DNA of 64,000 nt from a virus. The notes under the pieces were generated by a model. That model made no database searches. It saw only the letters and a list, made by a program, of their open reading frames with translations, and was not told the origin of the DNA. The DNA lies in the IMG/VR virus record IMGVR_UViG_3300032073_000008, positions 1-64,000 of that record; one strand, 5' to 3'. The translations under genes were made by a program, and so were the position numbers. Positions 150-46,031 of the stretch are shown here, piece by piece. Each line of letters opens with the position of its first letter. Position 1 is the stretch's first letter.

Positions 150-536
150 TTATATTTTCCTAAGAGTCTCAACAATTAAATTGTCTAGTAGTATCTCAGA
201 GTCTTTGATTCTCTTACCATCGACTAGACCAATATCTGTTGGCCAATAGTTTAGCATTATTAAAAAAGGTTTTAAGTAGTGCAGATAACCGTCCAACTTC
301 AAGAACATCATCCTTGTTGCAGCTTTTGCCTCAAACATATTGTAGATAACTATTAAATGATTCAGAATTAAGCGTTCTTTTAAAACACCAGTCTGCTCAT
401 ATTTACGAAACAATCTTTTTATGTATCGTATTCTTTTTAAGTCATCATGAAACTCAAGCAAATCCGTACAATTAGGATTCGTATATGTCTTCATAGCAAA
501 AAGTAAGAAGTTCTCTTCAGTCAAGTTATCAAACAT
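150..536 (-). CDS. Hypothetical T4-like phage protein (128 aa)
   Basis: An intact 128-codon ORF with an ATG start lies 3 nt after the stop of the upstream structural gene. The protein is hydrophilic, with alternating helical segments, for example FHDDLKRIRYIKRLFRKY near residue 30 and a hydrophobic helix around residues 55-95. No known enzyme motif, signal peptide or clear transmembrane segment is visible. It sits in a run of small genes downstream of large virion-type proteins, so it is probably a late, structure-related protein. I do not recognise a function. Confidence 0.7.
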   Translation of the reverse strand: MFDNLTEENFLLFAMKTYTNPNCTDLLEFHDDLKRIRYIKRLFRKYEQTGVLKERLILNHLIVIYNMFEAKAATRMMFLKLDGYLHYLKPFLIMLNYWPTDIGLVDGKRIKDSEILLDNLIVETLRKI

Positions 537-539
537 AAT

Positions 540-914
540 TTAGAATGTGCTCAGTGCTGCCCTCTTAATAACAGTTGAACTAACTGCAACATAGATGTAA
601 TCAGCATCAAACCAAATAGATCCAGCAGCAACATTTGGATTAGTTGTTGTTGGATTATTTGTTGTTGGTGTCGCACTTGTTAGTCTGAGATTACCAGTAC
701 CAGAAAATGTAGTGTTAGCAGAAACAGTAGCGTTGTCACCACTAACAGTAACATCTTTTGTGAACACAGCAGCAGTCGGGACAGAACCAAATATGTTTGT
801 CACCGAAACCTTTTTGCTTACTGGAGTGCCTGATGGATTATCCACAACCATAAACAAATCTTCTGCTGCAACCGATGTTGCAGCAGTCAATGCAGTAACT
901 TTCTTATCAGCCAT
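540..914 (-). CDS. Small virion/fibre-type structural protein (124 aa)
   Basis: The N-terminal MADKKVTALTAATSVAAEDLF followed by VVDNPSGTPVSKK resembles a module I associate with the start of small structural or fibre proteins in marine T4-like phages. The middle is rich in T, N and P (residues 55-95). The C-terminus SIWFDADYIYVAVSSTVIKR resembles the end of tail-fibre-like proteins. A GGGGAT ribosome-binding site precedes the ATG. It is compact and low-complexity, with no enzymatic motif. A decoration or fibre-tip role is inferred from composition and context. Confidence 0.65.
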   Translation of the reverse strand: MADKKVTALTAATSVAAEDLFMVVDNPSGTPVSKKVSVTNIFGSVPTAAVFTKDVTVSGDNATVSANTTFSGTGNLRLTSATPTTNNPTTTNPNVAAGSIWFDADYIYVAVSSTVIKRAALSTF

Positions 915-927
915 CAGCTAAATCCCC

Positions 928-1413
928 TTATGCGTCAGGTAATTGTGTATCGTCTGCAGCGTCGCCAGAGATAGAACCTGCAGCTACTAATGTTTCATAG
1001 TGTATTCGACCAGAACGACCACCAGAACCAGCTGTACGCTTAACCCAACCAGCGTGAGCAATTCGTTTACCTTCGCCAGCAACACCAACCTCTGTAGTGT
1101 CAGCACCAAATACTAAACTAGCGTCACCACCAGACTCAGAATATGTAATGCTTTTTGGCTTTTCAGAAACAACATAGTTAGCGTTTGCTGAAGCACCTGC
1201 TAATGTTCCACCGTTATCTGCTGAACGAACAGTCGCAACTGTCGCATTAGCAATAGCAGTGAATACATAGTCATTACCACCAACATTTAAAAAGTCACCA
1301 ACTTTAAATGCTGTTAAGGTTGTGCTGGTGCCAATAACAGTGCTGTTTGCAGCAGTAACAACTACTGATCCAGGACTTGCACCTATTTTATCTTTCATTC
1401 CCCATAAACTCAT
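928..1413 (-). CDS. Small structural protein (161 aa)
   Basis: This 161-aa protein is rich in A, G, T and V and begins MSLWGMKDKIGASPGSVVVT. It has a beta-rich composition with no charged helices, typical of phage virion or neck/decoration proteins. A strong AGGAGAA ribosome-binding site precedes the ATG. The residue pattern near 110-140 (GKRIAHAGWVKRTAGSGGR) is seen in structural proteins of marine T4-like phages, from memory. It is co-directional with, and closely follows, the 743-aa and 861-aa proteins. The precise location in the particle is unknown. Confidence 0.65.
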   Translation of the reverse strand: MSLWGMKDKIGASPGSVVVTAANSTVIGTSTTLTAFKVGDFLNVGGNDYVFTAIANATVATVRSADNGGTLAGASANANYVVSEKPKSITYSESGGDASLVFGADTTEVGVAGEGKRIAHAGWVKRTAGSGGRSGRIHYETLVAAGSISGDAADDTQLPDA

Positions 1414-1452
1414 CTTATTTTTCTCCTAAGATTTATTTTAATTTCTTTCTAT

Positions 1453-3684
1453 TTAGTCTTTTTTCATAGCCAATTTAGTGGCAGTTGCTTCCATCACTCG
1501 TTCCCAGCGATTGCCATATTTCTTTTTAAAGAAGTTTTCGTCAAGTTTTGGTTTAGTTTCAACCTTTTCTTTCTTACCTGATTTAACTTCTTTTTCATCT
1601 CCTTCCTTATCAGTCTTTTCATCTGAATCGTCTTTGTCGATAGCTTTAGAGATAGCTTTGCGTTTCTTGTGTAAGAACTTGTCTGAGCTGTCAACATCAC
1701 CATCGTTGTCGATGTCTTTGTCTTTACGATCTTTGAACTTCTTCTTAACAGCTTTAGGTTGGACTTTATCAAGACCTTCACCGTCATCAGACTTATCATT
1801 AGTGTTGTCTTCGTTAATCTGCTCTGGCTCTTGAACTGGCTCAGGTTTATCTTCATTAGTAGGTTCTTGACCAGTAACAACGCCACGAACAGCATCTAGC
1901 AATGAATCGCTTATGCCATGATTTTTAGCTGTACCAAAAAAGTTTTCATTAGATTCTCTAAATGTAACTCTACCTCTTTGTCCACCTTTTATCTTAAGAA
2001 TGGTATCAACGATTTCAGTCGCTTTCTCTTTATCAACCTTCATACCTTTCATTACAAATTGAATGCCTTGATCTTTATTTTTTGATGGCATCATAAATTT
2101 TTCAGCTTTCTTTAAATATGGGGTTAGACCTTTATTCGCTTCATCTAATTGCACACTAAGAAGTGAAATATATTTTTCATCTGATTCGTTCATTTCTGTT
2201 GACTCCATTTTACCTTTAACTTTGAACATTTTGTATTCGCCTTCTTTCTCAGCTTTGTTTGCTCGGTCAAGATACTTCTTAGCTTTCTGCTCATTGTCGA
2301 ACTTAGAGAACTTAGTGGTATCAGCTTTACCTTTCTTATCGTAGTATTGAACCATGAAGTAATCTTCTTCTAATTCAACAGACTCTTTCTGATCAAAACG
2401 AACACCGTCATCTTTTATTACATAATCAGCCTTTCTATCCATTTTAGCAACAGCAAATTGGTCCATTCTAAAATTACCTTTTGTACCGCTTTTCCATTGA
2501 ACTGTTGCCGCAGGCTTACCATTCACTTTAATTTGTTTAATCACTTTACCATATAACGCCTGACCTGCACCAAAATCCATTTTTACAGTAGCACCTTTAT
2601 CAATATTAAAGGCTTCATCAAGTTCCTCACGAACAAGAACTTGTATGTGATCTTCTCCACTACGCAATCCACCTTTATCAACATGAACATTCTTTTTGCC
2701 ATATTTTTTTATTGCTTGAGCAGCAGTCACGCTGTTGGTTGTTTTCCAACGCATTCCTTTTGGTGCTTTTGGATATGCTTCATCAAGTTGTTGATCACCT
2801 TCAACTTCAGTTGAATTCATTAAGTATTTTTTTCTACTTATAAGCTGAAATGTGTTCTTAATAGATGGAGCAACTTTTGCAATTGCTTTAGATGCAGCGT
2901 CTTCTACTTTCTCAGCACCTTTAATTGTTTTATCTATTTCTTTTATTACATCTTCAAGAGACTTAACTAAAACAGGATCAGAAAGTTTTGTTCTTTGTTT
3001 TTCTGCTTTTTTCTTAGCTACTTTTAACTTTTCTATAGAAGTAAATAAATCACTGTTAGGTATATCACCTACTTTAAACTGAGCACTCATTACTTGATTC
3101 TCATTAAGCTCAACTTCTTCTTTCATATCATAACTAGCAACCAAACCACTAAGCTGATTCACCATAGTCGTTAAGACTGGCATTGGAAGAGTTATCAACT
3201 GATTGTATGCATCTTTTGACAAACCTTTCACTTTGCTTAATTGTTTTTTAACATCAGACATATTAGCTTCTTTAAATGTAACCTTGCCCTTTTGACTGCC
3301 TTTCATTTTAAGAATTCTATTAACTAGATGAGTTGCTTTCTTTTTATTAACTTTCATAACATCCATTACAGCTTGAATGCCTTGTTCTTTATTTTTTGTA
3401 CCCATCATCGCATCTTCGACTTTCTTTAAATCGCCAATAAGAGCTTCATCAAGAGATTCTTCTTCAGCTAGAAAGTCATCAAATGCCTTTTCAAATGCTT
3501 CGTCAAGATCCTTTTCGTCTTTTGTTTCAGGCTTCTCGTGAGTATAACCCAACTTCTTCATGCGCTCATGGTCTTCTGGCTTCTCAGCTTTATACGCTTT
3601 GCCAGTCTCTGGATCATACATCATGTGCGGTTCAAAGTCTTGTTTTGATTCATACATTGATCTAATTGTATTTGCTAGATTCAT
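1453..3684 (-). CDS. Large charged virion-associated protein with internal duplication (743 aa)
   Basis: This lysine/glutamate-rich protein carries two copies of a ~60-residue module, at residues 82-141 and 520-579. Each has the pattern LKK-x(2)-E...NK-x-QGIQ-x-VM...KAT...KG-x-Q-x-G-x-VTF. Near residues 657-668 is a calcium-loop-like string DIDNDGDVDSSD, and the C-terminus ends YGNRWERVMEATATKLAMKK, a tail shared by other marine T4-like structural proteins as I recall them. The start has an AAGGAA ribosome-binding site. It lies 12 nt downstream of the nucleotidyltransferase-headed gene and is probably expressed late with it. It may be an internal or scaffold-like head protein. The function is unproven. 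Confidence 0.65.
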   Translation of the reverse strand: MNLANTIRSMYESKQDFEPHMMYDPETGKAYKAEKPEDHERMKKLGYTHEKPETKDEKDLDEAFEKAFDDFLAEEESLDEALIGDLKKVEDAMMGTKNKEQGIQAVMDVMKVNKKKATHLVNRILKMKGSQKGKVTFKEANMSDVKKQLSKVKGLSKDAYNQLITLPMPVLTTMVNQLSGLVASYDMKEEVELNENQVMSAQFKVGDIPNSDLFTSIEKLKVAKKKAEKQRTKLSDPVLVKSLEDVIKEIDKTIKGAEKVEDAASKAIAKVAPSIKNTFQLISRKKYLMNSTEVEGDQQLDEAYPKAPKGMRWKTTNSVTAAQAIKKYGKKNVHVDKGGLRSGEDHIQVLVREELDEAFNIDKGATVKMDFGAGQALYGKVIKQIKVNGKPAATVQWKSGTKGNFRMDQFAVAKMDRKADYVIKDDGVRFDQKESVELEEDYFMVQYYDKKGKADTTKFSKFDNEQKAKKYLDRANKAEKEGEYKMFKVKGKMESTEMNESDEKYISLLSVQLDEANKGLTPYLKKAEKFMMPSKNKDQGIQFVMKGMKVDKEKATEIVDTILKIKGGQRGRVTFRESNENFFGTAKNHGISDSLLDAVRGVVTGQEPTNEDKPEPVQEPEQINEDNTNDKSDDGEGLDKVQPKAVKKKFKDRKDKDIDNDGDVDSSDKFLHKKRKAISKAIDKDDSDEKTDKEGDEKEVKSGKKEKVETKPKLDENFFKKKYGNRWERVMEATATKLAMKKD

Positions 3685-3696
3685 TTTTATTATTCC

Positions 3697-6282
3697 TTAG
3701 TTATCAACTTTTTTACTGGCTCGCCACTGATAACAAGACCAGTATCCAGCTTTTGTTTTATCGGTTTTGTTATCACAATCGTGCCTTGCTCTAAATGACT
3801 TTCTTCGCTCTGGATCATCACGCTTGATCTCCATATTTGGATCACCAAATGTGACTTTAACTACATTACCTTTATCATTCTTAACATACACACCAAATTT
3901 CTTTTTAGATCCTGCTGGAAGTCTGAATGGGTCATTCAGCTTTACTTTGCGACCCTGATACTCTGACTCCTCAACAATCAAATCATCATACATGTCAGTA
4001 CACTCTTGACATGGAGTATCTTTCTTATATTGAGCTACAAGTTTGTTAGTACCTTCCTCGCCTGCACCACCTTCCTCAGTGATAGCATCTTTATACATCT
4101 TAGCAAGAACGCGAGCGGTCACACCATTGTATTGTTTGGCAACCTGAGCAGCATAGTAATCTACACTGTGTTTTAACGAACTTCCTTTTGCTTCTTTCTT
4201 TTTGCGAGAATAAATTTGTTTCAATACTTCTAGTGCAGCTTTGTATTTATTCTTACTGACAGTTCTAGCTTTCAAGCGGTCAATCAATTCAGTTGTTGGA
4301 ACTTCTTTCAACAACTCCTTATCTTCCTTTAATGCAACTTTTACTTGTCGCACCTTTGTTTCCATATCTCGAATTTCAGGTTCTAGATCTTTACGTTGGC
4401 GACCGCGACTCTTTTTAATTAAGTCTTGAAGTTGTGATTCAAAAGAATCGAGCTTACGCTTTAGATCACGCTCAGGCTTCCCTTTGTATGGATTTCTAAG
4501 TGCTTCCTCTAGAGACTCAACAATACCACTACCAACTTGACCAAGTTTTTTTCCATAGATTGCTCTGCCAGTTGCTAGATCAACTAAGTCTTGAGCAGCA
4601 CGCCTTGAATACCCCATTTTACTTTGGATATCAGATACTGCACGCTTTGCACCTCGTTTTTTGATTATGTCTTGAATCATGTCAACATGCTTTTTCTTTA
4701 ATGCAAACTTATCACCGTCTTGTGGAAATACACCCATTGATTCATTAACACTTTCTTTCTTTGGCTTTGGCTTACCTTTATGCTTTGCCCATAAATCAGC
4801 ATCGCCAGTAGTTCTTGTCTTACCGCCAGTAATGAAAGAGTTTACACGAGCATATGCCCATTGCTGTTGGCTTGCTCCTGGACGATGTCCAGTCTTCCAT
4901 GCAGCCATTCCGCGATTGTAAACTTTCTTCAGGATACCAAGAGATATGCCAGACTTCTCAGACTTTTTCTTTAGCGCAGTGGCTGAGTCTTCGGTGATCT
5001 CAAAAGATTCTTCTTGGTTCTTAGCTTTAGTGTCAGCAGTACGAGCACGATCCAACATACGATCATGTTTTTTCTTATCAGAAGCCTTTTCTCTGTCTAT
5101 CTTTTCTTTAGCAGAGTCAACTTCACCCTCACCAAACATATCATGATACTTTTTAGTATGTTTAGAAGTACGAGTCTTTGCACCTGCATCGCCAGCATGC
5201 TTATCTGGATATGCTGATGGATCATCCGAATCTTTCTCAGCACCCTTCTTAAATTGAGCATCACGCTTTGCTTTGGTAGACTTTGATAAACCGCTATGGT
5301 ATTTCTTTGGTTGTGTTCCTTCGCGATCTTTGATATCTTTATCCTGAGCAACCCTCGCTTCAAATAATTGATCAAAGTCTATCTCTTCTTTGACGCCACC
5401 GCGAACTCTCTTCAATCTTTCAATCTCCGCTTTACGAACTTTTGGTAATATTTTCTTGGCTATCTTGGGAACAAGACCAGCTTTCTTTGCGACCAACTTA
5501 TCAATCTGTATCTTGTCTGATGGCGATAGAGTAGCATAACTTTTCCCACGATCACCAGCAACCTTTTTACGAACAATTGCAATTGCTTGTTTTTGAGCAC
5601 GCTTTTGTATAGTCTTAGCATCAGCCATTTTCTTTGCTTTCATCTTCTTAATACGCTGTAACTTCGGTGCTAATCGTTTCATCCTACGACCGATAGCTTT
5701 GCGTTGTGAAATGCTTAGTGGCTTTTTATCTTCATCTAAATCTTCTTTTATTACCGACCTGATAGTATCATAGATATCTTTAGCGTCACGGTCATTTAAT
5801 TTCTTTGGTAATCCAGACTTAAATGTATCAAAGTCTCCTTCAACAGCAGTAGCTCTCAACTTTGATGCGGACATACCCTCAACGCCAGTTGCATCGGGAT
5901 CTCGTGCGCCTGCTGATACGACCTTAATAGTTTTAAAGTCATAGTCTCTTCCGTTATACTTTTGTAATAAACCATTGAACTCAGTAACTCGATCAGAGCC
6001 AACAACCATAACAACCTCATCATACTGCTTATCGAGTTCGTCCATTATCTGGAAGATTGTCTTAGACTTTGATTGTGTTACTGACTTACCGAATGCTTTG
6101 CGTGCGAAACGAATCTTCTCAGCGTAGTTGAGAGGATCTTTCTTATTATTCTGAGTGTGTGACAGGTATACTTTTGCTGGAGCTTTTTCTTTCTTTGCTA
6201 CAGCTTCCACTTTATCAACCAGCTTCTGATGTCCGATTGTTGGTGGGTTCATTCTACCGAATGTGATTACTACTTTTGCCAT
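3697..6282 (-). CDS. Nucleotidyltransferase (NMNAT/cytidylyltransferase-like) fused to a long structural region (861 aa)
   Basis: Residues 1-175 form an HxGH-type nucleotidyltransferase domain. FGRMNPPTIGH (8-18) is the nucleotide-binding signature, VVGSDRV follows at ~93-99, and SASKLRA (138-144) matches the ISSTxxR phosphate-binding motif. Enzymes of this fold join NMP groups to phosphorylated substrates such as NMN or phosphopantetheine. The remaining ~680 residues are charged and modular, including a segment KTGHRPGASQQQWAYARVNS that resembles DUF5824 and a C-terminal FRARHDCDN...GYWSCYQWR module found in other marine phage proteins. An AAGGG ribosome-binding site and a TATAAATA late promoter lie upstream. 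Late expression plus the long tail suggests a virion-associated enzyme. The substrate is unknown. Confidence 0.75.
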   Translation of the reverse strand: MAKVVITFGRMNPPTIGHQKLVDKVEAVAKKEKAPAKVYLSHTQNNKKDPLNYAEKIRFARKAFGKSVTQSKSKTIFQIMDELDKQYDEVVMVVGSDRVTEFNGLLQKYNGRDYDFKTIKVVSAGARDPDATGVEGMSASKLRATAVEGDFDTFKSGLPKKLNDRDAKDIYDTIRSVIKEDLDEDKKPLSISQRKAIGRRMKRLAPKLQRIKKMKAKKMADAKTIQKRAQKQAIAIVRKKVAGDRGKSYATLSPSDKIQIDKLVAKKAGLVPKIAKKILPKVRKAEIERLKRVRGGVKEEIDFDQLFEARVAQDKDIKDREGTQPKKYHSGLSKSTKAKRDAQFKKGAEKDSDDPSAYPDKHAGDAGAKTRTSKHTKKYHDMFGEGEVDSAKEKIDREKASDKKKHDRMLDRARTADTKAKNQEESFEITEDSATALKKKSEKSGISLGILKKVYNRGMAAWKTGHRPGASQQQWAYARVNSFITGGKTRTTGDADLWAKHKGKPKPKKESVNESMGVFPQDGDKFALKKKHVDMIQDIIKKRGAKRAVSDIQSKMGYSRRAAQDLVDLATGRAIYGKKLGQVGSGIVESLEEALRNPYKGKPERDLKRKLDSFESQLQDLIKKSRGRQRKDLEPEIRDMETKVRQVKVALKEDKELLKEVPTTELIDRLKARTVSKNKYKAALEVLKQIYSRKKKEAKGSSLKHSVDYYAAQVAKQYNGVTARVLAKMYKDAITEEGGAGEEGTNKLVAQYKKDTPCQECTDMYDDLIVEESEYQGRKVKLNDPFRLPAGSKKKFGVYVKNDKGNVVKVTFGDPNMEIKRDDPERRKSFRARHDCDNKTDKTKAGYWSCYQWRASKKVDN

Positions 6283-7313: not shown

Positions 7314-8125
7314 GTAAGTTTTCCTTCGTTATAATATTGTTTCCACAAGTTTGTAAAATTTATTCCTGAATATATATATTCATCTGTCCATGGGAGCTTT
7401 TTACCACCACCAATATAATGTAAAATATATGGATCTTTAAGCATGCCCATTTCTTTTGCCATAGCCAACCATGAAACATCTGTATTCATTTCAAACGGTA
7501 ATTGAACAAAGTTTCCTCTTAATATCCAACCCAGATAACTTTGCACCACAAATGCTCCATCTGGCACATCTTTATCTAGTGTAGCATCAATAAACATATC
7601 AGTCAATTGTAATTCCATCCATTTTTTATTATCGAATAGCATTATTCCAGATTGACAAGCTGGTGTTTCGCCTAGACCGAGATCAGTATCATAATCTCTT
7701 CTGAGCATTTGTTTTTCTTTATTCCATGGATTACCATTTAATGACATTGCGACTGGCATGTCGTGCATGTCTACATCCCACAAAAAAGAAAAATCTTTTA
7801 TAGCGATAGTGTCAGCATCCATCCACATAGATCTAGAATATTTTTTATGTGATAAGTTTGGTATCAATATTCGATTATACATTGACGGCATACCGCTATC
7901 AGCTCTTCCATCTCCCCACCCTCTACCGCTTGGGTTACATGGTAATGAAACATTAAAGATAAGTTCTATATCTGGGTGTTCAAGTTGTTTGAATTCTTCT
8001 GGCTCGCCAGTACAATAAACTTGGAAATCAAAATTCCACTCAACTTCTTTTTTTAGACTATTGAAAAGAGCAATGACACCAGATATGTGTGATGGGGTGC
8101 ATCCTGTAACTATATTATTTTTCAT
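7310..8125 (-). CDS. GT8-like glycosyltransferase (271 aa)
   Basis: The protein begins MKNNIVTGCTPSHISGVIAL, and a metal-binding DAD triad follows a hydrophobic strand at residues 103-105 (RSMWMDADTIAIKDF). This is the GT-A arrangement of glycosyltransferase family 8-like enzymes. A conserved C-terminal HYIGGGKKLPW resembles the HxxGxxKPW motif of that family, supporting nucleotide-sugar transfer. The gene overlaps the preceding dioxygenase by ATGA and the epimerase by 4 nt, so translation is coupled. Its start sits in a 40-bp repeat also present at the next upstream gene junction. It probably glycosylates a surface glycan. DNA or virion glycosylation is also possible. Confidence 0.8.
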   Translation of the reverse strand: MKNNIVTGCTPSHISGVIALFNSLKKEVEWNFDFQVYCTGEPEEFKQLEHPDIELIFNVSLPCNPSGRGWGDGRADSGMPSMYNRILIPNLSHKKYSRSMWMDADTIAIKDFSFLWDVDMHDMPVAMSLNGNPWNKEKQMLRRDYDTDLGLGETPACQSGIMLFDNKKWMELQLTDMFIDATLDKDVPDGAFVVQSYLGWILRGNFVQLPFEMNTDVSWLAMAKEMGMLKDPYILHYIGGGKKLPWTDEYIYSGINFTNLWKQYYNEGKLT

Positions 8126-8150
8126 CTAGTGGACCTTTGAAGTATTTTAA
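8111..8150. repeat. 40-bp gene-junction direct repeat, copy 1
   Basis: This is nearly identical (37 of 40 bases) to 8734-8773. It spans the stop of the PhyH-like gene and the start of the GT8-like gene. The two copies are read in different frames at the gene ends, which suggests duplication or recombination at the junction. Confidence 0.85.
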
Positions 8151-8748
8151 TCTTTTTTTGTTGACCAACGAAAGGTTCGTTATAATATCCTTCCATATCC
8201 ATGGGTGCTTCTGTGTATACACAAGCATATAACCCACGCGGTTTGTCACTTGTATTCTCATTTGACGCATGAACAGTAGATCCATTGATTGCTACAATAT
8301 CTCCTGCTTTGGGCAGGAGTGTTTTCCACTTATCATCTTTATCTCTAATAAACAATGCACCATTGTGTCTGGTGAAATCATCTATTGCGATACTAAGATT
8401 TACAGTGTGTATATCATTACCTTTGTTTCTCAATGAGTATTGATTGTCATAATGTGGTCCAAAGCTCATCTTATCATGCGGTAGTTTGTATATCATCTGA
8501 TCATTGAATAGATGGGGTGTGCCCAATAGGTCAGTTGCAATATCCTTCATTATATCAGAAGTGTATATCTCGGTCAAGGGTTGTGAGAACTTCCCTGCAC
8601 ACGATATACCTTTCCATGTAGAATACTTATCACATTCTGTCCGCATATTATGTCCACAATCAGAGAGTATTTCAAGATCTTTTTTAGAAAAGACATTAGG
8701 TATGATTACCCATCCTTCTTTCTTATAGTGATCTATATTATTTTCCAT
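8122..8748 (-). CDS. PhyH-family 2-oxoglutarate/Fe(II) dioxygenase (208 aa)
   Basis: This is a phytanoyl-CoA dioxygenase-like jelly-roll oxygenase. Iron ligands are visible as H99-x-D101 (GPHYDNQ) and distal H160 (STVHASNEN), with a 2OG-binding arginine R171 (KPRGLYACVYT). The opening KEGWVIIPNVFSKKDLE is typical of the family. Such enzymes hydroxylate small molecules, sugars or lipids with 2-oxoglutarate and O2. It is flanked by two glycosyltransferases, so a sugar-linked substrate is plausible. Its C-terminal residues LQRSTR come from a duplicated junction sequence that encodes HFKGPLDGK in the neighbour, hinting that the gene was inserted as a cassette. Confidence 0.85.
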   Translation of the reverse strand: MENNIDHYKKEGWVIIPNVFSKKDLEILSDCGHNMRTECDKYSTWKGISCAGKFSQPLTEIYTSDIMKDIATDLLGTPHLFNDQMIYKLPHDKMSFGPHYDNQYSLRNKGNDIHTVNLSIAIDDFTRHNGALFIRDKDDKWKTLLPKAGDIVAINGSTVHASNENTSDKPRGLYACVYTEAPMDMEGYYNEPFVGQQKKIKILQRSTR

Positions 8749-13935: not shown

Positions 13936-14974
13936 TTTCTATATCCTCTTGAGGTGTTTCATCAATACCAACCTGACCATACTTAAACTCTTTGGCTGCA
14001 GCCACTTCAAGCTGTTCCATAATCTCAGGAGTAAAATACTTCTCAGGGTCGTTGTTTATTGCTTTACCAAACACCTTACTTCCATCAGGTAATTCATAGC
14101 GTGTCGATACTTTCTTGATGATGTTATATTTTTCAGCAAGATCAAGTAGACCATAATAACGATCAAGACCACTATCATATGATAACTTCACTTCAACCTT
14201 TTTCTGTTCTTTAGTGAAGCGAGACTTATGCATGGTTGCTTTGATAATGTTACCAACAACATCAGTGCCATCTTTATCTTTCTTCTTACCTAACATAACA
14301 ATTGAAGATGCAGCATACTTCAAGCCACTACCACCGCTGATTTCTTTAGTCGGGATGTAAGCACCAACAACATCATAGACATGGTTTGTAACTAATAAAG
14401 GAACATTTGCTTTAGCTAATTTCAAAGACAATACACGGAAAGTACCACGCAACAACTGTGCTTTGGTCATATCTCGTTTGTCAGTACCAGCTTCAGTATC
14501 AGCCAACTCTTTATTAGAAGATAACATGCCGAGTGAATCAAGAACCATCATCATTGGGGGAGCATCTTTACCTTGATCAATGTAAGTGCTTAGAATACGA
14601 GTTGCGTTTGTACGAAACTCTTCAATAGAACATGGCTCAGAAATAACAACACGCTTTGTATCAATACCACGATCTTCCATCATCTGTTTTGTTACTGCAG
14701 CTTCAGTGTCAAAATATATGACACCACCATCTTTGTTATCATCTAAGAACTGTTTGAGCACACCCAAAACAAAGAATGTTTTACCAGTAGCAGATTCACC
14801 AGCAAACGCTGTAATTTTATTATTAGGCACACCACCATACAGACTACCAGACACAGCAGCATTCAAAATATATGATCCTGTGTCTATAGAGCCTGAAAAC
14901 TCGGAACTGTTTGCACCTTCATCAAGGAGTGATGTATTATCGATCCCCTTTACCATATCAGTTAAAAAACTCAT
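13925..14974 (-). CDS. uvsX: RecA-like recombinase UvsX
   Basis: This is the T4 UvsX-type recombinase, which forms filaments on ssDNA and catalyses strand exchange for recombination-dependent replication. Walker A is GESATGKT (59-66), the Walker B-like strand is MMMVLDSLG near residue 141, and the DNA-binding loop region follows (TNHVYDVVGAY, then KEISGGSGLKYAASS). The 349-aa length is normal. A GAGGAAG ribosome-binding site precedes the ATG. A near-consensus sigma70 promoter ends ~30 nt upstream, so uvsX, the 104-aa gene and gp41 form one early unit. It should act with UvsY and UvsW, both encoded in this window. Confidence 0.97.
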   Translation of the reverse strand: MSFLTDMVKGIDNTSLLDEGANSSEFSGSIDTGSYILNAAVSGSLYGGVPNNKITAFAGESATGKTFFVLGVLKQFLDDNKDGGVIYFDTEAAVTKQMMEDRGIDTKRVVISEPCSIEEFRTNATRILSTYIDQGKDAPPMMMVLDSLGMLSSNKELADTEAGTDKRDMTKAQLLRGTFRVLSLKLAKANVPLLVTNHVYDVVGAYIPTKEISGGSGLKYAASSIVMLGKKKDKDGTDVVGNIIKATMHKSRFTKEQKKVEVKLSYDSGLDRYYGLLDLAEKYNIIKKVSTRYELPDGSKVFGKAINNDPEKYFTPEIMEQLEVAAAKEFKYGQVGIDETPQEDIENVS

Positions 14975-15004
14975 AACTCTTCCTCAATTAAAAAATATTG
15001 TATA

Positions 15005-15033
15005 ATTATATATCATAACATATAGAAAGTCAA
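15005..15033 (-). promoter_or_regulatory. Sigma70-like early promoter for uvsX-gp41
   Basis: Minus strand TTGACT (15028-15033), a 17-bp spacer and TATAAT (15005-15010). The predicted start lies ~20 nt before the uvsX ATG. Confidence 0.8.
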
Positions 15034-15039
15034 TAACAA

Positions 15040-15303
15040 TTAGCTATTGTAGATCTTATCAATCAGATCACTAAACTCTTCCAATTTATTATTTCTATTT
15101 GGCCAATAGATGTAATCTTTTTCTGGATTTTTAGCCAGATTGTTTAGGAGCGGTTTGAATGTATTGTATAGATCAATACACTTTGCTTCCCATGTATCAG
15201 CAGTTTCTGCAGCTTTAGTTGCTTGTGTGCTTGCCTGCTGGACAACATCTAATTCATCTTCAGTGACGGCTGTGAAGCCAAAATCAAAATCGAAGTCACT
15301 CAT
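15040..15303 (-). CDS. Conserved small T4-like phage protein (87 aa)
   Basis: The protein opens MSDFDFDFGFTAVTEDELD and ends with a conserved-looking segment EKDYIYWPNRNNKLEEFSDL. I recall similar small proteins beside DNA polymerase and uvsX in many marine T4-like phages, none with a known function. It has a GAGGAAA ribosome-binding site and lies 12 nt after the polymerase C-terminal gene, so it ends that operon. It is acidic at the N-terminus and basic at the C-terminus, with no membrane segment. It may be an accessory replication factor, judged by neighbourhood only. Confidence 0.75.
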   Translation of the reverse strand: MSDFDFDFGFTAVTEDELDVVQQASTQATKAAETADTWEAKCIDLYNTFKPLLNNLAKNPEKDYIYWPNRNNKLEEFSDLIDKIYNS

Positions 15304-15315
15304 TTGTATTTCCTC

Positions 15316-16410
15316 TTATGCAAAAAAACTTTCTAACGAACTTTTCTTTTCAGACTGCCATCCAACCGACTTCAGAATATACTTTAGTGGTTCAAGGAAT
15401 GCTTTCTGAAACTGCAATTCGCGGTCTATGTAGGAGTTTAACTCAAATTCTTTGGGCAGTGTTGTCATAACACTGATGATATTTTGCCTTGTTGGATTAG
15501 GCAATTTCAAATAACAAAACTTAATCTTCTCACCATCTTTGATGGACTCATATTTTTTGGTGAGCTTCATATCACGAAGCATATGATTATATACCAACCC
15601 ACCACGAACATGAATTGGTGTTCCTTTAGGAATTGTCAGCTCATCACCCAATACTGTATACTTATTCAAATCAGAAATTGAACGAGGAAAGGCAATGTCC
15701 TCGAAGCTGAAAGTATCAAACTTTTCTCTGAATTCAGAAATATAACTCTGCACTTCATCTTCACCTTTTGTCATAATAATCTTGATGGCTTCTTTCAAAG
15801 CATCACGACAGACTGCTGGTGTTGATGACTTAACAGTCTCAATACCCATCATCTTCAATTGCGGTTCAGCATAACGCACACCCTCATTATCATACACATT
15901 CATCATGTAGCGTTTCTTAGCAGTCCAGATAGCTTTATCTGCAATCGCTTCACGCTTCATAAACATCTTTTGGGAATATGCGTTTGTTAGGTGTGCCAGC
16001 TCTTCATAACTTTTATCAATAAAAGGTTCCAACTTCTCAGCTGCAACTTTGTCCAAGAAATTGACGACTTTGACAGCATCACTTCCCTCTTCAAAGCATT
16101 TGCGTACAAGTTTGTCGAGATTGACATAAATTGAATCTGTGTCCGACGCAATAACATAATCAACTTCGTCTGTATCCAAGATCTTGTTGAGATATTCATT
16201 TACTCTCCTTTCAATCCATCTAATTGCTAACTGACCAGACAATGTAATTGCCTCTGCCTTTCGTACATCAAAGAATCGAAAGTATTTATTACCGACTGCA
16301 CCATAAGCTGAGTTGAGCTGAACCTTTTTTGCAAGTTGAAGATTCTTGTACTTGCTTATATCTTTAACAAGTTGCTTCTTCCGTTCAAGAAGTTCAGCTC
16401 TTTCAGTCAT
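15316..16410 (-). CDS. 43B: DNA polymerase gp43, C-terminal part (palm motif C, thumb)
   Basis: This is the C-terminal part of a family B DNA polymerase encoded as its own gene. Motif B K29-VQL-NSAYG (29-37) of the fingers and motif C SDTDS (89-93) with the catalytic aspartates D90 and D92 are present. The rest corresponds to palm and thumb, and the C-terminal LESFFA resembles a clamp-binding tail. The ORF starts at an ATG in a TAATG overlap with the 90-aa gene. The break lies in the fingers just before motif B, so the two halves together make ~848 residues, the size of intact relatives. They must assemble in trans. Confidence 0.95.
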   Translation of the reverse strand: MTERAELLERKKQLVKDISKYKNLQLAKKVQLNSAYGAVGNKYFRFFDVRKAEAITLSGQLAIRWIERRVNEYLNKILDTDEVDYVIASDTDSIYVNLDKLVRKCFEEGSDAVKVVNFLDKVAAEKLEPFIDKSYEELAHLTNAYSQKMFMKREAIADKAIWTAKKRYMMNVYDNEGVRYAEPQLKMMGIETVKSSTPAVCRDALKEAIKIIMTKGEDEVQSYISEFREKFDTFSFEDIAFPRSISDLNKYTVLGDELTIPKGTPIHVRGGLVYNHMLRDMKLTKKYESIKDGEKIKFCYLKLPNPTRQNIISVMTTLPKEFELNSYIDRELQFQKAFLEPLKYILKSVGWQSEKKSSLESFFA

Positions 16411-16682
16411 TATACTACAATCCCGCTTGTTGCTTGAATATATGCTTTCTCAACATCTTCATTGGTTTCAGTCATGAATACTGTTCCACCAGTATAGAAA
16501 GAAACTGAGTCAACATTTGCTTTACCTGTCGCACAAACGCCATGAGCAAATCCCATACCCTGCTCGCCATGGACAAGCATGCGTGGATCTTTGATAACAA
16601 TACTAGCATCTGTTTCTTCTTCAAACTTACCAACAAACTCTCCAGTGAGAGTTACTAATGAAACTACAGTTCCTTTCTTCAT
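16410..16682 (-). CDS. Small conserved protein inserted between the polymerase halves (90 aa)
   Basis: An intact 90-codon ORF begins MKKGTVVSLVTLTGEFVGKF, with a beta-rich Sm/OB-like N-terminus and a helix at the end (EDVEKAYIQATSGIVV). It overlaps the upstream polymerase half by ATGA and the downstream half by TAATG, so ribosomes could pass through all three. It carries no LAGLIDADG, GIY-YIG or HNH motif, so it is not a homing endonuclease. Similar stand-alone proteins occur in marine T4-like phages, from memory, which argues against it being polymerase debris. Its function, and whether it helps join the halves, is unknown. Confidence 0.85.
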   Translation of the reverse strand: MKKGTVVSLVTLTGEFVGKFEEETDASIVIKDPRMLVHGEQGMGFAHGVCATGKANVDSVSFYTGGTVFMTETNEDVEKAYIQATSGIVV

Positions 16683-18133
16683 AATTCTAATAACCTTTTG
16701 TTTATCTGTTCAAGTTCAGTCTGTGCTTCAAGCATTTTTTGCTTATAGCCCACACGCTCATTATACATCTTCTCCATCATCTCAGGCAAGAAACCTTGCT
16801 TGTCTTTTCTGAAGTATCTACCATTACCAGCCATAGCGAAACCATCTGGTGGTGTTTGTATATCACGATCAATTATATCCTCAACCGTGACATTTGTCAA
16901 CCACTCATCTTCAACAAATGTTTCGGGTGATATATTGTACTGCATGATAAGGTGAGGATATAGTGAGTTCAAATCAAAACTCATAACCCAATCATGCATA
17001 CCAACATGCGGATCTTTCACATAAGCACCAGCAAACTGAGAGTTTTTGATTGATTCGCTTTTTGGTGGTATGACAATATTCTTTGACATGAGATAATTAT
17101 GTATAAGAACATCCCACATTGTAACTTGAGTGAAGACATCGTTGTAGTTCACTTTGGCATCATAAGCAATCGCCAACGCACCTTCAATCAGCTTCATCTT
17201 ATCTTCAAGCCTATCAACAAGCTCAACATCCTTTATGTTATAGTCAATAAACTTTTTGTAATCTAGTTTGTAGAGTTGATTCAAGTTATCATACTCTGAA
17301 TAATCAATCTTCTTTTCGCCCAACTCAACTTCACCTATATGATCAAGACGATATGATTCCTGCTGTGAATATGTAAACTTCTTATACAGCTGGAGATAAT
17401 CAAGCAAAGCAATCCCAGTCAACTCATAGATTGTCTCTTCACGATTAAAGTTCCGAATGGTACGCTCTTTGATCCATCCATAAGGTGATAAACGCTTAAC
17501 AAACTTTTCATCAAATAATCTGCCAATACGGTTTACAAGATATGGAATATCAAAACCCTCAATGTTCCACCCAGTAACAATATCAGGATCAAGTCTTTGC
17601 CACAAAGCAACAAAGGCTGATAATAATTTCTTCTCATCTCGACAGTTTATGTAGCTGACATTATCCTTTCCGCTGTCATCATACTCACCAACACCCATTA
17701 CATAATATTGACGCTTACCGTTGCGTGTTAAGGATAGTGTGATTGCTGTAACTTCTTGATCAGCTTTTTCTGGAGCAGGGAATCCATCATCAGAGGCAAC
17801 CTCAATATCGATATTAGCAATACGAATAACATCTGTGTCATACTCGCTACCAAATCGCTCATTGACACAAACATGTGCCCATTTAGTTGAGCCATAGATC
17901 TTGAAGTTCGACACACCCTCATATTTTTGTACGAAATAACCAGCTTCACGAATATCACCAAGAGCGACTTCTTCAACATAGTCGCCCTCTAATGTTTTCC
18001 ATTTAGTTGGTTTTGGTGACGGAACATACATTTTAGGATTGTAATCGATCTTATGATCAAATCGTCTGCCGTCTTGATATCCACGGATGTTTACTTTGTT
18101 CCCACGGACATGAGCATGAGTATAAAAATACAT
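16679..18133 (-). CDS. 43A: DNA polymerase gp43, N-terminal part (exonuclease and palm motif A)
   Basis: This holds the N-terminal and 3'-5' exonuclease domains plus the first palm segment of a T4-type family B polymerase. Exo I is D109-x-E111 (NIDIEV), Exo II NIEGFD (190-195), Exo III Y298...D302 (YNIKD) and polymerase motif A DLNSLYP (387-393). All catalytic residues of these motifs are present. The protein ends in a charged coiled segment (EAQTELEQINKRLLEL) that would continue into the fingers of an intact enzyme. The TGA stop overlaps the next ATG. It must pair with the product of 15316-16410 for synthesis. Confidence 0.95.
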   Translation of the reverse strand: MYFYTHAHVRGNKVNIRGYQDGRRFDHKIDYNPKMYVPSPKPTKWKTLEGDYVEEVALGDIREAGYFVQKYEGVSNFKIYGSTKWAHVCVNERFGSEYDTDVIRIANIDIEVASDDGFPAPEKADQEVTAITLSLTRNGKRQYYVMGVGEYDDSGKDNVSYINCRDEKKLLSAFVALWQRLDPDIVTGWNIEGFDIPYLVNRIGRLFDEKFVKRLSPYGWIKERTIRNFNREETIYELTGIALLDYLQLYKKFTYSQQESYRLDHIGEVELGEKKIDYSEYDNLNQLYKLDYKKFIDYNIKDVELVDRLEDKMKLIEGALAIAYDAKVNYNDVFTQVTMWDVLIHNYLMSKNIVIPPKSESIKNSQFAGAYVKDPHVGMHDWVMSFDLNSLYPHLIMQYNISPETFVEDEWLTNVTVEDIIDRDIQTPPDGFAMAGNGRYFRKDKQGFLPEMMEKMYNERVGYKQKMLEAQTELEQINKRLLEL

Positions 18134-18568
18134 TTAGTCTTCACCAACCTCTTCAATTTCAAGTTCACCGTGCATTACAACATTTGATTCTTCAGAATCA
18201 TATCCTTCCTCTTCAAGAAAGAAAAAACTATCTTCATCATATCCTTCTTGAAGAGCTTCCTTCTCATTATCGCTGAATTCACCAACAAAGTCAATGTCAA
18301 CTGAAATGCCATCCCATGTAGATTGAAACTCATGCTCTTCAAAATCATATGGCTCAAACTCATCGTCATCTTCAGCATACATTGCAGCTTCAAGAGCATC
18401 GACTTCATCTTTATCTTGTGGCGTAACATTAACAGTCCCATTTCGCCATAGTGTACTTATAATTATTTGTTGTTTTTGGTCATCACAATGAGTAAATGTC
18501 TCAGACTCTACGAAACATTTTTTGTATGCTGGCGAAACAGCATATGTTTTACCGATTTTTATTTCCAT
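18134..18568 (-). CDS. Acidic hypothetical protein, paralogue of 25962-26387 (144 aa)
   Basis: This very acidic protein begins MEIKIGKTYAVSPAYKKCF. It shares an N-terminal plan with the 141-aa protein at 25962-26387: M-x-I-x-IG-x(2)-Y, then a strand and W-x(2)-G-x(2)-x-VTP, then an E-x(1)-EF-x-S block near residue 100. The C-terminal half is rich in D and E (e.g. YDEDSFFFLEEEGYDSEE). A strong AGGAGAG ribosome-binding site precedes the ATG. It sits directly upstream of the polymerase genes. Acidic early proteins of this kind are sometimes DNA mimics, but nothing here proves that. Confidence 0.7.
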   Translation of the reverse strand: MEIKIGKTYAVSPAYKKCFVESETFTHCDDQKQQIIISTLWRNGTVNVTPQDKDEVDALEAAMYAEDDDEFEPYDFEEHEFQSTWDGISVDIDFVGEFSDNEKEALQEGYDEDSFFFLEEEGYDSEESNVVMHGELEIEEVGED

Positions 18569-18569
18569 C

Positions 18570-19157
18570 TCACTCTCCTATAATCATATTATAAATGTCA
18601 TTCCAATTATTGGCTCTTGTTCCATTATACTCTTTATTGTATCTATGGTCAACCAAAATACTTTTTAGACCAAACCTTGTTCCTAACTCAGCATTGGCAG
18701 GCTTATCTTCAATCCACCAACACTCACTGTCTCTGTACTTTAACAAAGCATCATCTTTATCAGCACCACACTCAAGGCATGTCAAAACTTCAAATACACC
18801 TCTACCAAAAACGCTGTCCAGATTTCTCTGTCTCAGAGCAATAGCTTTATCATCATCCGACATAGAAGTGATACAGTGGAATACATAACCATGCTCTTCA
18901 TGTAACTTGCGAACATACTTCACCGCATCTCTTAATGGTGGAATATCTTCCATCCATGCACTTTCATTGAAGTGACGAACCAATGGCTTTGTCTCTTCAC
19001 GACTAACACCATATCGCTTGTGTACCTTATAAAGATCTCTATATCCATCAACAGTTTTGAAACCTTTTTTATCCATCCAAGAACTGAAGGAATGCTCCCA
19101 ATCAAGAAGCACTCCATCACAGTCAGTTAAAATTACTTTATCAAAAGTAGCATACAT
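18570..19157 (-). CDS. HAD-superfamily phosphatase/nucleotidase-like (195 aa)
   Basis: HAD motif I is DCDGVLLDW (12-20), with the nucleophile Asp and the general acid two residues later. A Thr/Ser motif II lies in HCITSMSD (~94), a lysine region follows, and motif IV appears as WWIEDKPANAE (~148), where the acidic residues bind Mg2+. The size fits small cytosolic phosphatases and 5'-nucleotidases. It overlaps the 66-aa gene by one base and precedes the acidic protein. In a replication operon a nucleotide phosphatase or a sugar-phosphate phosphatase for the neighbouring UDP-sugar dehydrogenase are both reasonable. The substrate is not readable. Confidence 0.8.
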   Translation of the reverse strand: MYATFDKVILTDCDGVLLDWEHSFSSWMDKKGFKTVDGYRDLYKVHKRYGVSREETKPLVRHFNESAWMEDIPPLRDAVKYVRKLHEEHGYVFHCITSMSDDDKAIALRQRNLDSVFGRGVFEVLTCLECGADKDDALLKYRDSECWWIEDKPANAELGTRFGLKSILVDHRYNKEYNGTRANNWNDIYNMIIGE

Positions 19158-44149: not shown

Positions 44150-44569
44150 TCAATGCATTGATGTATTTGCTGATAAATGATAGACATTATCTATCTGTTT
44201 TGGTTTATCATCTATAATTTTTAATTTCTTCAACAGCTCATCTATTTCTTGTGCTGTCATCGAATCCTTCTTACTATTAAAAAAAGTGCCACCATCTTCC
44301 CTCATCGCCCTTAAACAGTTATCATAATATTCAACCATATCATCATCAACATCTACTGTTACTAGGATAGTAGATTGTTTTAAGTGAAGCAAGTTTACTG
44401 CTTTAGTTAATGGAACCCATATTGTAGATATACAAACTGGCGATGCTCCTGTCCTAGACTGTATGATCATTTGAACTGGATCTATAATATGTAGATGAGT
44501 TTCATCTTCATGTGTAACTTCTGCTATTAGTGTATCACCATTCACCAGCTTAATAATCTTAATGCTCAT
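44150..44569 (-). CDS. Conserved Sm-like small protein (139 aa)
   Basis: The N-terminus MSIKIIKLVNGDTLIAEVTH, then LHIIDPVQM, has the strand pattern of an LSm/Sm-like barrel seen in small proteins of marine T4-like phages. The C-terminal third is helical (TAQEIDELLKKLKI). It lies between uvsW and gp55, overlapping the uvsW stop by 11 nt. A GGAAT ribosome-binding site precedes the ATG at 44567-44569. RNA binding is possible from the fold guess. Function unknown. Confidence 0.65.
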   Translation of the reverse strand: MSIKIIKLVNGDTLIAEVTHEDETHLHIIDPVQMIIQSRTGASPVCISTIWVPLTKAVNLLHLKQSTILVTVDVDDDMVEYYDNCLRAMREDGGTFFNSKKDSMTAQEIDELLKKLKIIDDKPKQIDNVYHLSANTSMH

Positions 44570-46031
44570 TATCAATTCCTATGTTATATATTTTGTATGT
44601 AAAGTTTTCTTCATTATACATTTTAACCCTTACTGCAAAATGTTTCAATGTGTGGTTGTTGTATGACTTCCAGCTAAGATCATCTGATATGTCATAGAGT
44701 GTAGCAACCTCTTTACTGTCCCCTTTCCTCAAACCACGACCTATTGACTGTAAGTTCCTTATGCGTGATTTACTAGGACTAGCAAAGATAACATTATGTA
44801 AGTTTCTGATATTAATCCCAGTTGAGAAAGTTCCATAAGAAGCGATGATAATTGCATCTTCTTCTTTCTCAACAACTGCTCTAACTTGTTCTCTTGTTTC
44901 TGCATCTACTCCACCGTATATAAAAAATACTTGTCGACCTTCTTCAGCCGATTCTTTTATTTGGTTATACAACATCTTACCGTGTTTTTCTACATATTGG
45001 AAGAGTAATAGTGTATTACCTTTTCTTGTCAAAGTCAAGTTCTTAATGAACGCATTTCTTCTATCGTGCTTGACCAAGAAGTCCATTTCTTCCTGATATG
45101 TTTTCCTATTCATCATCTTACGAATAGCATCACTATATTTTAAAACTAGACATTTTATCCTGAAGTCTGCCAAAGTATTATTATCAATAAGCTCTTTGGT
45201 TGTTATCACTTTCATAACTGGACCAAACAAACCCTCTAGCACCAACTTGTTTGTTACAGTTCCGTCTAATGTACCTGTGAAGCCAAACCTATATTTACAA
45301 TCAACCATCTTCTCCATTATCTTGGTGAGTGATGTAGCCTTAAATAAATGTGCTTCATCTCCAATTATAATATCAAACTGATCAAAATATGATTTTGGTT
45401 GTTTATATATGCTCTGCCATGTGCTGATAATTATTTGTGCTTCAGGGTCAGATTTTGCTTGACCTCCAGTCACTAAGTGTGTATAATAAGGTTGTCCCTT
45501 TTCGGAATAGTCTATAAAGTCAGTATTCAACTGAGAAACAAGTGATGTAGTTGGTACAATAACCAGAGCTTTCTTACAAGTCTTTCTTAGATAGTATTTC
45601 AGTAAGCAGTAGATAATGAATGATTTACCTGATGCTGTTGGGGAAAGGATCAAGGCTCTGTGATTGCGGATAGCATGAGCAACTGCTCTTAGCTGATAGT
45701 CTCTTGGTTTATAGTTTTCCTCTTCAAGAAATTTCTCTAATCCATTTAATGGCAGGTCAATAGTATCATCCAAACCATCATGTACTATGACTTCATAATC
45801 CCTTTCTTCAGCAAACTTCTTTAACTTCTCTATTAGACCAACATATATCTGCATTGAATTAACATTAAAAAGTCGGATTTTTCCATCCCACATTTTAGAT
45901 CTAACTGAAGGAATGAATGATGCATTAGGCACAAGAAACTCAAAATAACTTGAAAGTTCCATAGCGATACCACGATCACATTCGACCTTTAGATGCACCT
46001 CATTCTTCTTGTATATGTTGATCTGTTCCAT
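44559..46031 (-). CDS. uvsW: DNA/RNA helicase UvsW
   Basis: This SF2 helicase processes branched DNA and R-loops and shifts T4 from origin to recombination-dependent replication. Motif I is SPTASGKS (~137-144), motif II GDEAH (~223), motif III GFTGTLDG and motif VI QSIGRGLRKG (~443). An N-terminal dsDNA-binding-like domain (residues 1-90) is retained. The ATG at 46029-46031 follows AGG. The 490-aa length matches T4 (503). It overlaps uvsY by one codon and the Sm-like gene by 11 nt. Confidence 0.95.
   Translation of the reverse strand: MEQINIYKKNEVHLKVECDRGIAMELSSYFEFLVPNASFIPSVRSKMWDGKIRLFNVNSMQIYVGLIEKLKKFAEERDYEVIVHDGLDDTIDLPLNGLEKFLEEENYKPRDYQLRAVAHAIRNHRALILSPTASGKSFIIYCLLKYYLRKTCKKALVIVPTTSLVSQLNTDFIDYSEKGQPYYTHLVTGGQAKSDPEAQIIISTWQSIYKQPKSYFDQFDIIIGDEAHLFKATSLTKIMEKMVDCKYRFGFTGTLDGTVTNKLVLEGLFGPVMKVITTKELIDNNTLADFRIKCLVLKYSDAIRKMMNRKTYQEEMDFLVKHDRRNAFIKNLTLTRKGNTLLLFQYVEKHGKMLYNQIKESAEEGRQVFFIYGGVDAETREQVRAVVEKEEDAIIIASYGTFSTGINIRNLHNVIFASPSKSRIRNLQSIGRGLRKGDSKEVATLYDISDDLSWKSYNNHTLKHFAVRVKMYNEENFTYKIYNIGIDNEH

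Follow-up and report, generated by a model that had tools for sequence, protein, structure and literature searches.

How can the DNA polymerase gene of a T4-like phage be broken into two cistrons with a third gene lodged between them and still specify a working enzyme, and how did it come to be so? The question is raised by a stretch of 64,000 nucleotides of DNA from a marine T4-like virus (positions 1 to 64,000 of the IMG/VR record IMGVR_UViG_3300032073_000008), hereafter the window, in which gp43 is represented by two products, gp43A and gp43B (Table 1). A preliminary description had claimed that gp43 is split in the fingers, that its exonuclease and polymerase residues are intact over the two products, and that a 90-aa ORF is coupled to both halves. 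The ORFs are indeed as described, the insert sharing ATGA with gp43A and TAATG with gp43B. Together the pair of cistrons covers gp43, and the break falls within the fingers, after motif A and before motif B.

Table 1. Positions of the features discussed, in the window and in related loci.
Sequence	Feature	Position	Strand	Length and content
Window	gp43A	16679..18133	-	484 aa; N-terminal domain, 3'-5' exonuclease, palm motif A, fingers helix N
Window	Insert ORF, between gp43A and gp43B	16410..16682	-	90 aa; predicted Sm/LSm fold, phrog_527
Window	gp43B	15316..16410	-	364 aa; fingers helix P with motif B, palm motif C, KKRY, thumb
Window	Acidic ORF, directly upstream of gp43A	18134-18568		144 aa
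Window	Second Sm-like gene	44150..44575	-	phrog_527; between, and overlapping, ORFs read as uvsW and gp55
L256	Region with stub between the halves	2600-3300		End of HNH endonuclease gene
L140	Gene within split gp43	3244-3471		Tail-assembly-chaperone-like protein
L142	Gene within split gp43	3105-3899		Membrane or coiled-coil protein
L141	gp43A	280-1779		Extended C-terminus
ACG-2014f (L002)	Two Sm-like genes in tandem	7973-8633		Directly upstream of split gp43
ACG-2014f (L002)	Third Sm-like gene	5941-6231		Between gp44 and nrdC/gp62

Pfam assigned DNA_pol_B_exo1 and the N part of DNA_pol_B to gp43A, and the remainder of DNA_pol_B to gp43B. Both products matched phrog_262 (full-length gp43), together with phrog_2062 (half length, 502 positions) for gp43A and phrog_1918 (half length, 382 positions) for gp43B; thus, half-length gp43 proteins are already present in PHROGs. 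When aligned to RB69 gp43, gp43A reaches residue ~501 and gp43B starts from ~555, and the chain break is, as judged from this alignment, at the tip of the fingers. gp43A ends 37 residues past its FLP motif in a charged helical tail, and gp43B ends after the thumb in a SLESFF tail. The catalytic motifs form a full set across the two products, motif C (DTDS) and KKRY both lying on gp43B. R460 and K464 in helix N of gp43A align with RB69 R482 and K486, which hold the dNTP triphosphate (PMC3564110), and K29, N33 and Y36 in motif B of gp43B align with RB69 K560, N564 and Y567. Since the dNTP-binding residues of helix N are on gp43A and motif B is on gp43B, the halves would have to reassemble for a working enzyme; this anatomy implies a dNTP site shared by two chains and assembly in trans. 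A search of the 110-kb record, which may be incomplete, located PolB only at these two places and gave no PolA. The ORF that immediately precedes gp43A is very acidic, and has no PHROG match or Pfam match (E up to 1).

The same arrangement recurs elsewhere. The first IMG/VR scans returned the order N half, insert, C half in ~20 contigs from independent datasets at 60-93% identity, where identity to the window was 72-93% for the C halves and 51-86% for the inserts. Wider scans extended it to 36 non-duplicate loci, including the window, from many datasets, so that neither chance nor misassembly is in practice a tenable explanation. Both halves are under strong constraint (dN/dS of 0.06-0.13), and the insert is under purifying selection (dN/dS of 0.10-0.27, for pairs with measurable dS). 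An assembly error, which the preliminary description had named as a possible artefact, or a decaying polymerase gene, might be suspected in a metagenomic record, but is a negligible prospect given dozens of contigs with the same order, intact catalytic motifs with dN/dS far below 1, no second polymerase found in the 110-kb record, and gp43 likewise split in the deposited genomes of phages 44RR, 25 and ACG-2014f.

It is also very improbable that the halves are rejoined by intron or intein splicing, programmed frameshifting or bypassing, such that the polymerase would not really be split. Phage polymerase genes often carry group I introns and inteins, and the two frames overlap in some relatives (L116, L118 and L134), both of which count in favor of rejoining; however, an intron has no room in those same three loci, no family was found in an Rfam search of positions 14500-19000 of the window, which counts against an intron, and no intein domain was found by Pfam in either gp43A or gp43B. 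Moreover, the gap in the window is filled by a whole conserved gene, and the start and stop codons of the two halves are coupled.

Known split systems offer close parallels. As the preliminary description had stated, split gp43 is found in Aeromonas phages 44RR and 25 (NC_005135, NC_008208; PMC2988022), in which a T4-type PolB is likewise broken at the fingers tip into adjacent cistrons, with an N half of ~498 aa. By this likeness, the window polymerase belongs with the split gp43 of 44RR and 25. Assembly in trans and activity are reported for the phage 25 enzyme only, whose 43A and 43B co-purify and display polymerase activity (PMC2988022). The systems differ in what separates the halves, which is a GIY-YIG-like (seg) gene in phage 25 and an untranslated spacer in 44RR, whereas in the window it is a translated Sm-like gene; in addition, gp43B of phage 25 has a group I intron, and that of the window has none. 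Synechococcus phage ACG-2014f (NC_026927), already annotated with two gp43 genes, likewise has its polymerase broken at the tip of the fingers and small ORFs lying in the gap, but its cargo consists of phrog_3538 and another small ORF instead of an Sm-like gene, its Sm-like genes are upstream of gp43 and not inside, and it occupies a separate place on the polymerase tree. ACG-2014f has three Sm-like genes, two of them in tandem. A further parallel is the nrdA gene of Aeromonas phage Aeh1, split by insertion of mobE (PMC2988022), where an essential enzyme in two chains is still functional; nevertheless, it is a different enzyme and its free-standing homing endonuclease is still present, while none was found in the gap of the window. 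A search of the open-access literature gave no report of marine phages with a split gp43, nor of an Sm-like gene as cargo; the Sm-like cargo and the mobility evidence presented here appear to be new, split gp43 itself being known from the Aeromonas phages.

Evidence on how the break arose comes from relatives of the window. In a quickly built polymerase tree with 108 rows and several open forks, parsimony requires 13 changes between the split and continuous states, at least 9 of them on supported branches, and on this basis the same site is judged to have been split repeatedly in marine T4-like phages. The clearest case is provided by the split locus L256 and the continuous locus L262, which share 99.3% amino acid identity in the backbone but 51% in the tract that surrounds the break. 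Their DNA is 93-100% identical, and mostly 97-100%, across nearly the whole of gp43, but identity falls to ~50-70% between codon ~380 of A and codon ~40 of B. While the L262 tract resembles an ordinary continuous allele, that of L256 has 85% protein identity to the tract of L197, a split locus whose gap holds a gene for an HNH-type homing endonuclease, although the backbones of these two loci are only 70% identical. Furthermore, the halves of L256 are separated by a stub corresponding to the last 28 codons of an L197-type HNH endonuclease gene, 96% identical. Read from the sequences, this pattern is the trace that would be expected of homing with co-conversion, followed by endonuclease loss, and the three loci make up a near-complete natural record: unsplit (L262), split with endonuclease (L197), and split with stub (L256). 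The split allele has been carried horizontally, as lateral transfer of the split tract and an endonuclease relic are both seen in relatives. A milder case is L222, with a GIY-YIG-type endonuclease in the gap, whose tract is 88% and whose backbone is 97% identical to continuous L236. In L167, a background of the unsplit type is combined with a C half whose head is most like the clade of the window. The split is not peculiar to the phage of the window, a point on which the preliminary description was incomplete. What had been a curiosity of two Aeromonas phages becomes a condition that a core replicative enzyme of marine T4-like phages enters repeatedly and that moves laterally.

Other cargo occupies the same break in these relatives, including a 2OG-Fe oxygenase in L167 and L043 (with a weaker match in L115), and GIY-YIG-type endonucleases in L222 and L030 (with a weaker match in L106). 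In L140 and L142, the Sm-like gene shares the interior of split gp43 with a further gene (Table 1). Endonuclease relics were also sought in the short gaps of L219, L216, L196 and L202, none being convincing, and the window gap yielded neither an endonuclease gene nor a relic. The link to homing endonucleases made in the preliminary description is thus visible in relatives and not in the window gap itself.

Regarding the gene that now occupies that gap, the preliminary description was right that it is not a homing endonuclease. The insert matches phrog_527 (E 2.2e-6), as do 28 of 28 aligned relatives; a Pfam search of the insert itself gave no match, and among its relatives two matched Sm_like and two DUF6561. 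An AlphaFold2 model built from the alignment of 28 relatives (pLDDT 89.7) has the small, strongly bent beta barrel by which the Sm fold is recognized. Its best structural match is 3by7 (Sm/LSm-like; Z 11.6 over 82 residues), followed by archaeal and eukaryotic Sm/LSm chains (Z 8-9), and the insert profile also finds 3by7 by sequence (E 2.8e-17). According to this model, the insert is an Sm/LSm-fold protein, and phrog_527 the family of 3by7. The kinship with 3by7, a PDB entry of uncultured marine source, thus holds in both profile and structure; however, 3by7 is a stand-alone protein, while the gene of the insert is located within a polymerase gene, and the insert is devoid of the C-terminal tail that its relatives have. 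In the designed cage TIP60, a domain related to 3by7 makes up the five-fold part (PMC12389965), and by analogy ring assembly of the insert is plausible. As assessed by eye, the canonical Sm RNA-contact residues (MN in loop 3, RG(D/N) in loop 5) are not evident.

The preliminary description had also termed the insert foreign, which is incomplete, as members of its family are often found directly beside gp43 and a second copy exists in the same phage. Relatives of this second copy are found among replication genes in other marine phages. Our neighborhood survey covered 201 non-duplicate loci. Continuous gp43 accounted for 139, with an Sm-like gene just upstream in 78, just downstream in 11, and none seen in 50; the others were split, with the Sm-like gene inside (36), with it upstream (13), without an insert gene (8), or otherwise (5). 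An Sm-like gene lies at most 1.5 kb from gp43, mostly directly upstream, in 90 of the 111 continuous loci with both flanks, a count that includes duplicate loci, and none of the 36 loci with an internal copy shows another beside gp43. This adjacent-or-internal exclusion is suggestive, but stems mostly from a few clades, and largely from one. Because of it, relocation of the upstream Sm-like gene into gp43 seemed an attractive reading. In the Sm-like gene tree, based on short proteins with few columns and weak forks, the internal copies form one lineage of their own, nearest to gp9 of Melnitz (a long branch, and not beside gp43), so that direct descent from the upstream gene is unsupported; the same tree places the insert apart from the second copy of the window, which is accordingly unsupported as its source.

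These observations bear on a different view of the locus, in which an Sm-like ring, as in 3by7, would be a working partner of the polymerase, bound to gp43, to the fork or to gp43 mRNA, and the split would be kept because a position between the halves sets the dose of the ring protein. The frequent proximity of Sm-like genes to unsplit gp43, their absence beside gp43 where a copy is internal, the purifying selection on the insert, the overlap of its start and stop codons with those of the halves, and the single lineage of internal copies all speak for such a partner. Conversely, an insert gene is missing from eight split loci and unrelated cargo occurs in others, the main exclusion clade includes five unsplit relatives that also have no adjacent Sm-like gene, orthology between internal and upstream copies is not clear, and the RNA-contact residues are not evident. 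On balance, we regard a partner role as possible but rather doubtful. In its more elaborate form, the Sm-like protein would belong to the replisome of marine T4-like phages or regulate gp43, and in the lineage of the window the polymerase would have been opened at the fingers tip to house it, yielding a heteromer of gp43A, ring and gp43B from one coupled cluster; this we consider unlikely. With a phage Sm-like protein encoded next to or within the polymerase gene, a part in the replisome or in regulation becomes directly testable.

We consider it probable instead that the window encodes a two-subunit T4-type PolB, split by a homing endonuclease, in which cargo was then kept. A free-standing homing endonuclease gene would have inserted at the fingers tip, and split alleles would have spread by homing with co-conversion of the flanking gp43 sequence; later loss of the endonuclease would leave the break in place, with cargo such as the Sm-like gene remaining. 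In the lineage of the window, the gap would now be occupied by the Sm-like gene, retained under purifying selection. The split of 44RR, with only an untranslated spacer, implies that splits need not start with an endonuclease; since the window has neither endonuclease nor relic, a homing origin of its own split rests on relatives. Assembly in trans, an endonuclease origin in the lineage of the window and any function of the Sm-like protein are things that we infer.

In the proposed two-subunit enzyme, gp43A and gp43B would be made from one translationally coupled cluster and would pair via the antiparallel fingers helices N and P, lengthened in split enzymes, with the dNTP site completed jointly by both chains. 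The median distance from FLP to LNSxYG is 71 aa in split (n=55) versus 52 aa in continuous polymerases (n=128), in a comparison where start codons are assumed and relatives are not independent. Counts of ExoI and ExoII patterns were set aside, being too strict and distorted by truncated contigs. A model of gp43B, used solely for the length of its first helix, predicts this helix over residues 2-39 with moderate confidence (pLDDT 75.6). The simplest reading of these lengths is that the fingers helices may pair as a longer antiparallel coil, holding the halves together. The fingers tip of RB69 gp43 moves about 30 A during catalysis (PMC3564110), a motion with which tolerance of a chain break at this position may be linked. 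In one related locus, L141, gp43A has a C-terminal extension of ~20 residues past the usual helical tail.
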